Shown here piece by piece: positions 7,711-11,928 of a DNA stretch of 64,000 nucleotides (positions within the stretch are counted from its first letter, which is position 1; the number at the start of each line of letters is the position of its first letter). The notes beneath the pieces were generated by a model. That model was given only the letters and a program-made list of their open reading frames with translations, was not told the origin of the DNA and did not search any database. The stretch covers positions 707,501-771,500 of the forward strand of contig NZ_CP042467.1 of assembly GCF_007993755.1 (NCBI RefSeq), given 5' to 3'. Made by a program: the position numbers and the translations under genes. This DNA comes from Microvenator marinus. GTDB taxonomy: Bacteria; Myxococcota_A; Bradymonadia; Bradymonadales; Bradymonadaceae.

Positions 7711-8235
7711 CTACTGAATAAGTTGAATGCGGTGGACGAGAAGGCACGTATCATCGTCAGGCTGAACGTTTGCCGACAAGATCGCGTACTCTCCTCCTAC
7801 GAGGAACATGGGAATCTCATCGACAAGCCGAGAAGCATCTTGCTTGGCCTCGAAGAGCATCATGGCCCCGTCTAGCACGTTCAAAGTGAAAGATTCTGGC
7901 TCGTAGGAGTCCAAGGGGATACTTCTGAGCGCCTCGACCACAGTCTCCGAGCTCTTAGCCCAAAGCCAGCGTACAATCAGCCCACCTGTATGCCTGCCAC
8001 GGCTGCCAAGAAGTTCGGGCAATGGCCACCATGCCGTATGGAAACCGTCTTCAAGAACGAGTCCCTGCCCTCTTCCGACCGAAATCGGGAAAATCGGCTC
8101 ATGTCCTTCGCTCGCCCGGCGGTAGCCAGGATCGGACGCCCCTTTCCAATGTCTAGACAACGCCCGTGGCAACATGAGAATTGGGCTTGATGGGCTATAG
8201 ACCCACTTGATTTCGGACGAGTTTTGGAGGTTCAT
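7711..8235 (-). CDS. Imm21-like immunity family protein
   Basis: The pattern KWVYSPSSPILMLPRALSRHW, then a YRRA segment, SVGRGQGLVLEDGFHTAWWP, follows the layout I know for Imm21 proteins (W..S.GGP...LP, DY.RAC, G.G.ALVL.DEP). Imm21 members are immunity proteins found next to polymorphic toxins. No toxin gene is visible nearby, so this may be an orphan or a housekeeping relative. ATG 8235 has GAGG seven bases upstream and is preferred; GTG 8265 in the same frame would add ten residues. The flanking genes are a lipoprotein and, divergently, the ligase operon. Confidence 0.6.
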   Translation of the reverse strand: MNLQNSSEIKWVYSPSSPILMLPRALSRHWKGASDPGYRRASEGHEPIFPISVGRGQGLVLEDGFHTAWWPLPELLGSRGRHTGGLIVRWLWAKSSETVVEALRSIPLDSYEPESFTLNVLDGAMMLFEAKQDASRLVDEIPMFLVGGEYAILSANVQPDDDTCLLVHRIQLIQ

Positions 8236-8327
8236 CGAGGGCCTCGGATTGAAGGAACCGAACACGCGATAGGGTTCATCTAGGCAACCTTCCGAGTTGG
8301 CGATTTCATTCCCCGTCGGCGTTGGTA

Positions 8328-8358
8328 TTGACCAAATTTGCGTTCAAGATGCTATAAG
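8328..8358 (+). promoter_or_regulatory. Likely sigma-70 promoter of the ligase operon
   Basis: TTGACC (8328-8333) and CTATAA/TATAAG (8352-8358) are separated by 18 or 19 bases. Predicted transcription starts near 8364, between this site and the ATG at 8396, which supports 8396 rather than the upstream open frame from 8297 as the true start. Confidence 0.55.
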
Positions 8359-8395
8359 GCATGGAAAATGTGAACGACCTGAAGAGGAGTTTTCG

Positions 8396-9004
8396 ATGGG
8401 ACGAGGGATTGTGGTGGATTACGGCGGAGAGGTCAGCAGCTTTGGGTTGACCAAAGTTGAGCGTGAAAAGCTCTACGGGCGCCGGAAAAAAGTCGTTGTT
8501 GATGAAAACGGACAAGATTGCTCTCAGGCGATTCTGACTCGTGATGGCACAGCGCTGCTTCCCGCAGGCTGCACCGCATCGCTCTATTTGAACGACGCTT
8601 TTGAGGTCTGTGAGCGGGGTGATCTTCAGGCCGTTGGCCTCGATGGAGCGCCGCTTCCCGAGGTCGAGAGCACTCTCGGTGTCCCCACACAGCTCGACGG
8701 CCCCATCGAGGCTTCGAGACTCCTCGATCATATTGCAAAGAGTGTCTACGAGCTGGACCCAGAAGAATTGGGGCAGACGCTTCGAGAGCTCCTCGAAAAA
8801 GGCGATATCTTTGAGACTCGATTCAATTATCGCAAAGGCTACGACGATTCCCCAGCGTTCATCCTGCAAAACGAAGAAGGTATTTTTGCGATCGTGGGTG
8901 AGCCCACCGAGTTTGAGTACTTGCGAAACGAGAACGCCACAGCAAACGAAGCCGAAGATGAGGACGAGGATCCGTTTGACGACGATTTGGACTTCAGCTT
9001 TTAA
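8396..9004 (+). CDS. Unknown protein, first gene of the ligase operon
   Basis: The product of 202 residues begins MGRGIVVDYGGEVSSFGLTK after a GAGGAG ribosome site. It has a recognisable plan but no function I can name: an N-terminal basic segment (KLYGRRKKVVVDENGQ), a strand-rich middle with DGTALLPAG and VGLDG, the conserved-looking STLGVPTQLDGP, then a helical region, and a strongly acidic tail (EDEDEDPFDDDLDFSF). There is no signal peptide or membrane segment, so it is cytoplasmic. It is followed after ten bases by a second unknown gene and then a DNA ligase, all on one strand, implying a joint role in nucleic acid processing. The acidic tail may bind a basic partner or mimic nucleic acid; that is speculation. 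Confidence 0.75.
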   Translation: MGRGIVVDYGGEVSSFGLTKVEREKLYGRRKKVVVDENGQDCSQAILTRDGTALLPAGCTASLYLNDAFEVCERGDLQAVGLDGAPLPEVESTLGVPTQLDGPIEASRLLDHIAKSVYELDPEELGQTLRELLEKGDIFETRFNYRKGYDDSPAFILQNEEGIFAIVGEPTEFEYLRNENATANEAEDEDEDPFDDDLDFSF

Positions 9005-9014
9005 AGGAAACTAA

Positions 9015-9743
9015 ATGGCAACCAGGCAGATACGAATCTCCGACGAGAAAAAGCGGGATGCTCACGTCAATATTGAGGCCCCTAGACGCAAAGAGCGCGT
9101 TAGTTTTGTGAACTCGAATGGCCAGGCCGTGAAGTCCGACCGTCTGATCAAGATGACCGACGAGCAAACTTATGAAGCTTTGCTCAACAAGTTTGAAGAC
9201 GATACGCGGCTCGCCGAAGCATTGATGGATTCCGACCCAGAGATTCCTTTTGATAAGGCTGGACGCAGGGTTGGATGGAGTGACCGCGTTTGGATCCGCC
9301 AAGATGGTAGTGTGCTCTTTTGCGCCCGGAACCTACTGGTGAAGTACAATCCAGATGGTGAGGAGATCGAGCGCGGCGATTTCATTGATGTCGAAGCCAC
9401 CGTGAGTGCCGACGGAAACCCAATTCCGTGGAGTGGACGCCTTTTTGCGCCCGAGGACGTGGTTCGCAAGTACGTAATCGGTCGTGTGGTTCGCCTCCGC
9501 CACGTCAACGGATTGACCTACGACTTCCTCTATCAAATGGCCAAAGAGCTCAGCGACCAAAACAAACTTTTGTTGGTGCGAGCCATGGCCGATTCTGATG
9601 ATGGAAAGAAGAAACCTGCACCACTGATCTTTCAGACCAATGGAAGCCCTTACAACGGATTCCTTGAGGGTCGCGTAGATGGAGATTCCTATCTGCTTCG
9701 CCTTCACCTGTCTAATCTTGAGCTCAAGCGAGTCACGACATGA
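9015..9743 (+). CDS. Unknown protein, second gene of the ligase operon
   Basis: This 242-residue cytoplasmic protein starts at ATG after an AAAGGA site and overlaps the ligase start by four bases (ATGA). The N-terminus is basic (RISDEKKRDAHVNIEAPRRK), and the middle contains WSDRVWIRQDGSVLFCARN and YNPDGEEIERGDFIDVEA. The end, YLLRLHLSNLELKRVTT, is beta-rich. The repeated 'DGxxL' strands recall the first protein of the operon, so the two may be distant paralogues or partner subunits. No catalytic motif is recognised. Tight translational coupling with the ligase argues that it works with it. Confidence 0.75.
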   Translation: MATRQIRISDEKKRDAHVNIEAPRRKERVSFVNSNGQAVKSDRLIKMTDEQTYEALLNKFEDDTRLAEALMDSDPEIPFDKAGRRVGWSDRVWIRQDGSVLFCARNLLVKYNPDGEEIERGDFIDVEATVSADGNPIPWSGRLFAPEDVVRKYVIGRVVRLRHVNGLTYDFLYQMAKELSDQNKLLLVRAMADSDDGKKKPAPLIFQTNGSPYNGFLEGRVDGDSYLLRLHLSNLELKRVTT

Positions 9744-11185
9744 GTAATTTTACGAGCACATGGACCTCATACGGAGGCGGCCGCAAATCACCAATCGGCG
9801 GTCTGGAAGATACCGAACTGCACGACAAGCTAAAAAACTACAAGAAGTTGGTGGCTAAGCGTTATCGCGTGGTGTTTCCGGACAATATCACGAAGTTTCT
9901 CCCTGAAGGGAAACTCTGGATCTCAACTAAGATCGACGGTGAGCTTTGGTTTCTTGTCAAACGCGGCGATGAAGTTGCGCTCTGCGCTTATAATGGTCGG
10001 GTTTTGCAAGGAGTGCCGGTTGTCGATGAAGCGTCAAAAGCACTTGAAGGCTCGGGCGACATCATCATTCCCGGCGAGCTTTGCGCCGTCCCTCCTGATG
10101 GAAGTTCTCGGCCGAGGGTCGGGCACGTCGCCCTCTGTCTCGGAGATGACTCTCTGGCAAAGAACCTTGCGTTCAGGGCATTTGACGTGCTGGAGGCGGA
10201 CTCCGAGGACTGGCTTTATCGCGCCTACGAGGACCGCTACAAGCGCCTTGAGGAGCTTTTCTCTTCCGGCAAACGTTGTGCACTGGTCACGACGATTGAA
10301 GGCGAGAAAGATGTCGCGTCGGAGTATTTCAATGAATGGGTGAAGTCTGGAAAACACGAAGGTGTTATCGCTCGAACTGAACAAGGCATCACCTACAAGA
10401 TTAAGCCGTTCATCACGATCGATGCGGTGGTCCTGGCATTTGGTGAGCGGGAAGAGAATGGTCGGCCAGAGGTCAGAGAGATCACCGTAGGCGTGATGAG
10501 GGACGACGGGTCATGGCATATTTTGGGTTCGGTCGGAACGGGCTTTTCTGAGGCCGATCGACTCGATTGGCACGAACGGTTGAGCGCGATTGAAGTGCCG
10601 AGTTCGTTCAGGATGGCCAATCGAGAAGGAACTCTTTGCCGATTTGTTAAGCCTGAAATCGTGGTCGAGGTGAAGGTATCCGATATTGTGGATACGGACT
10701 CCCGAGATATGCCGGTTCGCCGAATGGCGCTTGAATACGACGCTGCGGACGGCTGGAGCGCGCTTGGTAGCCTGCCTATCGTTTCGCTGATTCACCCTAC
10801 AATCGTGCGTGAACGTACGGACAAGGCCATTGACTCTCAAAGCATTGGACTCGACCAGATCTTTCAACATGTGCCGTTTGAAGGACGTGAGCTCAAAGCA
10901 GAGTCCAGTGACCTTAGCAAATCGGCGATTCTTAAGCGTGGCGTGTACAAAAAGGACTCCAAAGGCAACGTTGCGGTCCGAAAGTATGTGGCTTTTGCCA
11001 CCAACAAGGCCGAAGAAGACCCGAACTACCCTCCGTTTGTTGTATTCTTTACGGACTTTTCACCGGGCCGCAAAGACCCGCTCAAGACCGATATGCGTGT
11101 GACTCCGCATCGTGACATGGTGGATGCCTATATTACCGAATGGATTGCCGATAACGTCAAAAAAGGCTGGGAAGAAGTTGTATGA
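9740..11185 (+). CDS. ATP-dependent DNA ligase family protein with a C-terminal extension
   Basis: The 481-residue protein shows the covalent nucleotidyltransferase motifs in order: motif I STKIDGELW with the adenylated lysine at about 64, the PGELCA glutamate near 113, FRAFDVLE (motif III, about 145-152), EGVIAR (motif IV, 207-212) and TYKIKPF (motif V, 218-224). An OB-like segment follows (GVMRDDGSWHILGSVGTGFS, then KPEIVVEVKVSDI), as in DNA ligase I/LigD. Residues 350-481 form a further domain I do not recognise, with FVVFFTDFSPGRKDPLKTD. It should seal nicks in DNA or a related nucleic acid using ATP. The usual ligase DNA-binding N-terminus is missing, so DNA recognition may come from the extension or partner proteins. 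It overlaps both neighbours by four bases. Confidence 0.85.
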   Translation: MSNFTSTWTSYGGGRKSPIGGLEDTELHDKLKNYKKLVAKRYRVVFPDNITKFLPEGKLWISTKIDGELWFLVKRGDEVALCAYNGRVLQGVPVVDEASKALEGSGDIIIPGELCAVPPDGSSRPRVGHVALCLGDDSLAKNLAFRAFDVLEADSEDWLYRAYEDRYKRLEELFSSGKRCALVTTIEGEKDVASEYFNEWVKSGKHEGVIARTEQGITYKIKPFITIDAVVLAFGEREENGRPEVREITVGVMRDDGSWHILGSVGTGFSEADRLDWHERLSAIEVPSSFRMANREGTLCRFVKPEIVVEVKVSDIVDTDSRDMPVRRMALEYDAADGWSALGSLPIVSLIHPTIVRERTDKAIDSQSIGLDQIFQHVPFEGRELKAESSDLSKSAILKRGVYKKDSKGNVAVRKYVAFATNKAEEDPNYPPFVVFFTDFSPGRKDPLKTDMRVTPHRDMVDAYITEWIADNVKKGWEEVV

Positions 11186-11928
11186 ACAAGCCCGTAGAGA
11201 GCGAGGACGCTGGACCTCGCGAAATTGAAGAACGCCGGTTTCTACATGGCCCTCGGCATCGGCGTTTTGAGCTGGCCTTCGTGTTTCGGGTGGCAATGGA
11301 GTTCATTCGTGGCTTTCGAAAGCTCCATTTCGCCGGCCCTTGTGTCACGGTCTTCGGCTCGGCTCGTCTAAACGACGGACCTTGGTATGAACTCGCAAGG
11401 CAAGCCGGCCAAGAGCTTGGCAAACGCGGGTTTACGGTGCTCACGGGTGGCGGGCCGGGCATGATGGAAGCCGCCAACCGAGGGGCGCGCGAAGTGGGCG
11501 CAAGAAGTGTCGGCGTAACCATTGAGCTTCCGTTCGAGGCCGGCGCCAATCAATATTGCGATTGGTTTATTCAGTTCAGATATTTCTTTGTCCGCAAGGT
11601 GATGCTTGTCAAATACTCGTACGGCTTCCTGATTACCCCGGGAGGGGTCGGCACGCTTGACGAGTTTTTTGAAACTTTGACCTTGATGCAAACGGATAAA
11701 ATCTACGACTTCCCGGTTGTCTTGCTTGGGAAGGAGTACTTTGAACCCCTGGTCTCTTTTATGAAAGACGTACTGGTGGAGCGAGGCTTGATCAGCGCGA
11801 GCGACCTCGATCTCTTTCTTGTGACGGATGACCCAGAGGAAGCCGCGGACTATATCGCGACTCGCTCCATCGACGCACACGGCCTGAAGTACAAGGCCTC
11901 ACCTTCTCGAATGCTTGGCGAAAACTAG
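11182..11928 (+). CDS. LOG-family (TIGR00730) Rossmann-fold protein
   Basis: The 248-residue product has both LOG signatures: GGGPGMMEAANRGA and PGGVGTLDE, on a Rossmann-like fold starting VTVFGSARL. Characterised members hydrolyse the N-glycosidic bond of nucleoside 5'-monophosphates (phosphoribohydrolase), best known from cytokinin activation; many bacterial members act on AMP or have unknown substrates. The long N-terminal part (residues 1-45, rich in charged residues, with HRRFELAFVFRVAMEF) precedes the fold. It starts inside the ligase stop (ATGA), so it is the fourth gene of the operon. It ends in a CTAG that is also the stop of the opposite DUF362 gene. Confidence 0.88.
   Translation: MNKPVESEDAGPREIEERRFLHGPRHRRFELAFVFRVAMEFIRGFRKLHFAGPCVTVFGSARLNDGPWYELARQAGQELGKRGFTVLTGGGPGMMEAANRGAREVGARSVGVTIELPFEAGANQYCDWFIQFRYFFVRKVMLVKYSYGFLITPGGVGTLDEFFETLTLMQTDKIYDFPVVLLGKEYFEPLVSFMKDVLVERGLISASDLDLFLVTDDPEEAADYIATRSIDAHGLKYKASPSRMLGEN

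Follow-up and report, generated by a model that had tools for sequence, protein, structure and literature searches.

Which of the genes packed together at one locus of Microvenator marinus belong together, and what would they do? The locus lies in a stretch of 64,000 nucleotides (the window, positions 707,501-771,500 of a single-contig genome of 5.85 Mb) and consists of four open reading frames in series on the + strand, that is, two genes of unrecognised families (genes 1 and 2), the gene for an ATP-dependent DNA ligase (gene 3) and a LOG-family gene. An earlier note, made from the sequence of the window, had proposed that all four act jointly, as a repair or nucleotide-signalling defence module. 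Our answer is that the conserved unit is made of three genes (1-3) rather than four, and that this trio is rather probably a self-contained DNA end-joining module akin to non-homologous end joining (NHEJ), in which gene 1 would contribute a Ku-type fold and gene 3 a dedicated ligase. The trio is most likely a previously undescribed form of NHEJ, no description of such a combination having been found in open-access papers (subscription papers and preprints were outside the scope of the search).

A conserved unit of three genes

Each of genes 1-3 was searched separately in a sample of 58 genomes of related taxa, and strong matches of the three fall in the same 14 genomes. Gene 1 occurs in one further genome (G008), whose contig stops just past it. 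In the window's phylum, a profile of gene 2 finds its target in 50 of 379 genomes, as a single copy each time (a trio frequency of about 13% of the genomes sampled). The order is as conserved as the content, with genes 1, 2 and ligase following one another on the same strand in 53 of the 56 loci that were read. Of the three exceptions, one reflects the end of a contig. The other two come from a single genus and have no gene 1 alongside; one of these two genomes, G208, keeps the gene elsewhere. Since these 56 loci had been chosen via the presence of the ligase or gene 2, it is the co-occurrence search that provides the independent evidence. Moreover, pairwise distances computed for one gene of the trio correlate with those for the others (Spearman 0.76-0.86), and no fourth conserved neighbour was found among the loci compared. 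The joint action that the earlier note had read into the overlaps between genes is thus strongly supported for genes 1-3, which show no pattern of independent occurrence, and does not extend to the LOG-family gene, which has to be excluded (see below).

The trio is also found in Bacteroidales (L002, L003, L005 and L006) and in one Desulfobacterales genome (L004), which brings its spread to three phyla. Because the ligases of these genomes fall among lineages of the phylum to which the window belongs in a ligase tree, we take the trio to have moved between phyla. In L003 and L005, additional genes (BspA-type LRR genes included) separate gene 2 from the ligase. BspA-type LRR_5 proteins are encoded in or around the trio of several Bacteroidales (L003 1491-4477, L005 4808-7954, L002 1530-4011 and 9364-10584), and the insert in L005 also includes an AAA_14/DUF4143 ATPase. 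In three loci (L006, L026 and L104), the trio has frameshifts or in-frame stops, reflecting either sequencing errors in draft assemblies or decaying copies.

The three proteins

Gene 1 (8396-9004, + strand) encodes a protein of 202 residues that, like the product of gene 2, matches no family in Pfam, NCBIfam or PADLOC. A likeness of gene 1 to the Ku core was recorded from the alignment before any structure prediction, and hhalign aligns gene 1 with 28 Ku cores in one collinear match of 125 columns, which runs over most of the protein (P 0.03). An AlphaFold2 model built from six sequences has a mean predicted local distance difference test score (pLDDT) of 56 and a predicted template-modelling score of 0.55, with the barrel parts at 70-90. 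The earlier note had suggested structure prediction as a check on this protein, and the outcome points to Ku, in that a Foldseek search of the PDB with the model returns chains of Ku complexes in all of the top 50 places (best E 1.3e-4, probability 1.00; 26 matches at E <= 1e-3). VIA-align ranks the Ku of M. tuberculosis first (Z 10.4 over 122 residues, root-mean-square deviation 4.8) and that of B. subtilis second (Z 10.3 over 102 residues, deviation 3.1), followed by Ku70/80 and then by the Ku-like Integrator subunits INTS13/14 (6sn1, Z 8.8) and SPOC (5kxf, Z 7.9). We hold with moderate confidence that the predicted fold of gene 1 is of the Ku type. The protein ends in an acidic tail (8933-9001, + strand; DDDLDFSF at its end in the window), whose family consensus, DDDLDFxMF, is conserved in almost every one of the 53 relatives aligned. 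This tail may be comparable to tails such as that of SSB.

Gene 2 (9015-9743, + strand; 242 residues) is the obligate partner of gene 1. When the two are compared with hhalign, P is 0.0004 with untrimmed and 0.004 with trimmed alignments, and the trimmed score is reached by none of 200 decoys shuffled in blocks of 5 columns and by 9 of 200 shuffled in blocks of 9. In addition, the pairwise registers of gene 1 with Ku, gene 2 with Ku and gene 1 with gene 2 look mutually consistent near the last strands. The reading that we prefer, if tentatively, is that gene 2 is a second, diverged Ku-like subunit. Its low-confidence structural model gave no reliable match with Foldseek or VIA (Ku chains come up just at E about 0.8 and were not used). 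A different identity, as a LigD-type phosphoesterase (VQxxHVNGLTYDF against VQKHDARRLHYDF), was dropped because hhalign gives P 0.05 and the register differs.

Gene 3 (9740-11185, + strand) encodes a ligase of 481 residues with nucleotidyltransferase motifs I, III, IV and V and an OB domain (Pfam DNA_ligase_A_M at 52-221 and DNA_ligase_A_C at 244-362) and no Pfam match to an N-terminal DNA-binding domain, which is how the earlier note had described it. The families and records nearest to it are ligases of NHEJ/LigD type and all of its sequence matches are DNA ligases, the best NCBIfam match being TIGR02779 (E 2e-20, 73.2 bits, under the curated cut-off of 227.75). Motif I (KIDG, residues 64-67, with Lys64 as the nucleophile; 9929-9940, + strand) has kept its lysine in 52 of 53 relatives. 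The relative that lacks it is a strongly diverged copy of the module in genome G035 (L036 8586-9968), which keeps the full trio and in which WTPGR replaces KIDG. This copy of the ligase is probably inactive.

The ligase ends in a conserved basic domain (residues about 345-481; 10772-11182, + strand), which had been singled out as unassignable and continues to be so, since its C-terminal 130 residues or so match nothing in Pfam, PDB sequences, Ku, gene 1 or gene 2. Among about 50 aligned relatives, this domain has conserved Arg/Lys residues at positions 357, 359, 362, 400, 405, 415, 423, 444 and 474, the other conserved positions being T438, D439, S441 and W477. The acidic tail of gene 1 may dock on this domain. 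The ligase protein contains neither a phosphoesterase nor a polymerase domain, and no polymerase is a conserved neighbour of the trio (the rest of the genome was not searched for one). A stand-alone LigD-phosphoesterase-like gene, coding for 156 residues, lies far from the trio in the window genome (G000:C1, about 3435634-3436101; L166:5135-5602, + strand), and its product could help to clean DNA ends. Similar stand-alone genes are found in G004, G012 and G001, and 3 of the 14 trio carriers have one, unlinked.

End joining, its rivals and the neighbouring genes

How might these proteins work together? Gene 1, probably with gene 2 as a second subunit, would bind or encircle the ends of double-stranded DNA and keep two such ends together (synapsis), and the ends would then be passed to the dedicated LigD-type ligase, which would be recruited via its C-terminal domain and close the break. 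The recruiting contact would probably be that of the acidic DDDLDFxMF tail of gene 1 with the basic domain of the ligase. End joining is what we infer to be the biological role of the trio. A more specific proposal, that is, a second and separately diverged bacterial NHEJ, with an obligate Ku-like heterodimer of genes 1 and 2 whose acidic, Phe/Met-ended tail docks on a new basic ligase domain, is conceivable and should be entertained with some doubt.

The genomes that carry the trio were also considered. By Ku hidden Markov model (HMM), canonical Ku is absent from 44 of the 50 carriers in the phylum sample (including the window genome) and likewise from the five trio genomes outside this phylum. 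Among the 58 relatives, genome size is greater in carriers, with a median of 6.6 Mb against 4.75 Mb in the others (P 2.5e-4, uncorrected for kinship), larger genome size being a reported correlate of bacterial NHEJ (PMC7719229).

Several points weigh against an end-joining module built on a Ku-like protein: (i) the Ku HMM (PF02735) matches none of 19 gene 1 members, even at E 10, (ii) the gene 1 model is of moderate quality (pLDDT 56, confident roughly at residues 1-20 and 90-170, template-modelling value 0.40), and the region of the DNA-encircling arm falls below pLDDT 50, (iii) the profile-profile match between gene 1 and Ku falls short of significance when taken alone, its score lying about 2.3 standard deviations above shuffled decoys and being reached by block-shuffled ones in 5 of 200 and in 6 of 200 cases, (iv) the profile similarity of gene 2 to gene 1 is weak, and the AlphaFold2 model of gene 2 (pLDDT 37) has no usable fold, (v) the trio has no linked gene for a polymerase or a phosphoesterase and (vi) canonical Ku and the trio occur together in 6 genomes vs 9.1 expected (P 0.32), so that a strict mutual exclusion of the two, which we considered, is not significant. 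As for the first of these points, because Foldseek and VIA return Ku and the Ku HMM stays silent, we read gene 1 as a protein with a Ku-type fold that nevertheless lies outside the Ku family of the sequence libraries.

The alternative that fares best, which we regard as unlikely, is that gene 1 is a scaffold barrel of the SPOC/Integrator kind and the trio a ligase complex for the repair of nicks or gaps, equipped with dedicated adaptors, which would not act on double-strand ends. SPOC and INTS13/14 do have the fold predicted for gene 1, and both the low confidence of the Ku arm region in the model and the lack of linkage between the trio and end-processing enzymes would suit such a complex. 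What speaks for Ku instead is that complexes of Ku fill the Foldseek top 50, that bacterial Ku has the top VIA score, that the ligase is nearest to NHEJ types and that the hhalign register runs through the arm region of Ku.

We find it quite improbable that the trio is an anti-phage or mobile-element module, in which genes 1 and 2 would serve as sensors and DNA would be sealed or circularised. Its patchy distribution and transfer across phyla would be in keeping with such a role, as would the DUF2779/Cas4-like nuclease and McrB/McrC-like genes found a few kb 3' of the trio in two Bacteroidales (L002 12282-16331 and L006 10579-15007). Against it, genes 1-3 have no PADLOC match, the viral contigs and phages that were searched yielded no module, no plasmid match spans 80% of the ligase, and carriers in the main phylum have the trio just once, with no defence genes conserved around it. 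Of the two roles put forward in the earlier note, repair is therefore the better half, being favoured because gene 1 is read as Ku-fold and the ligase as LigD-like, and defence, with weak circumstantial signs in its favour, is not supported.

An RNA-ligation or RNA-repair module is a highly improbable explanation, which a free-standing nucleotidyltransferase-OB ligase with no recognisable N-terminal DNA-binding domain might bring to mind, and which is countered by sequence matches that are all DNA ligases (LigD types best) and by a partner with a predicted Ku fold. Least credible of all is a four-gene module in which ligase and LOG N-glycosidase cooperate in nucleotide repair or signalling, since, despite an ATGA overlap between the two genes in the window and their adjacency in G004 as well, the LOG-family gene is away from the trio elsewhere and has relatives of 58-59% identity that stand alone in trio-less genomes.

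That neighbour (11182-11928, + strand; 248 residues) was rightly assigned, scoring 134.7 bits with TIGR00730 (cut-off 96.35), and was rejected as a member of the module. It adjoins the trio just in the window and in G004, the closest module-bearing relative, and since the flanks of the two are syntenic across many genes, we attribute the linkage to local synteny. Nearly all other trios have no adjacent LOG gene. Conversely, the copies of G007 and G010 (58-59% identical) are found where the trio is absent and with none of the window's neighbours alongside. With a LOG gene independent of the trio, the idea of nucleotide signalling by a ligase and an N-glycosidase fails. The protein has an N-terminal extension of about 50 residues before its LOG domain, largely common to the free-standing copies of G007 and G010 and to that of G004, identity with these three being 58-65% from residue 15-16 onward. 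It also gives the only PADLOC match at the locus, a weak one to PsyrA.

The layout of the locus is largely as first described, with four genes on one strand and ATGA overlaps of 4 bases between gene 2 and ligase (9740-9743) and between ligase and LOG gene (11182-11185). The run of genes had been taken to begin at 8328. We place the start of gene 1 at the ATG at 8396 because this start is conserved in relatives and is preceded, 6 bases upstream, by the Shine-Dalgarno-like AAGAGGAG (8382-8389, + strand). The single promoter that had been placed ahead of the cluster was not recovered, a consensus scan having found none. Nearby, on the - strand, is a gene for an Imm21-like immunity protein (7711-8265; PF15589, E 3e-7, just above cut-off), which is near the trio in G004 too.

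Known systems and what the trio would mean

Bacterial NHEJ, with a Ku homodimer and LigD (Mycobacterium, B. subtilis; PMC9638933, PMC12784961), is the closest parallel, in that a Ku-fold protein would be encoded with a LigD-type ATP-dependent ligase. The bacterial Ku C-terminus is basic, variable and extended (PMC9638933), whereas the tail of gene 1 is acidic and conserved. Like bacterial Ku, gene 1 is short and single-domain, but it has only 202 residues and is missed by Ku HMMs. Furthermore, the trio has an obligate additional protein, gene 2, and its ligase, unlike LigD, has no polymerase or phosphoesterase domain and carries a new C-terminal domain instead. In the archaeal type of NHEJ (Methanocella), Ku, polymerase, phosphoesterase and ligase are separate proteins. 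The trio resembles it in that its ligase stands alone and is not part of a fused LigD, and differs in that polymerase and phosphoesterase are unlinked and the Ku-like protein is far more diverged. We know of no counterpart of gene 2 in that system. Eukaryotic Ku70/80 and Integrator INTS13/14 would share the barrel fold and possibly a heterodimer of related subunits, which is putative here; unlike them, the trio has no vWA domain and sits in a bacterial operon with its own ligase.

Surveys of bacterial NHEJ find Ku by sequence HMM (e.g. at E 1e-4; PMC7719229), and carriers of the trio would be scored NHEJ-negative by them unless a canonical Ku is present. If the heterodimer proposal is true, a Ku-like heterodimer would escape all sequence-based surveys of Ku and would explain end joining in such 'NHEJ-negative' genomes. 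The trio would then be a compact end-joining kit of three genes and a possible bacterial parallel of the Ku70/80 heterodimer, and this cryptic Ku-ligase unit would alter the map of template-free DNA rejoining across the window's phylum, Bacteroidales and one Desulfobacterales genome.

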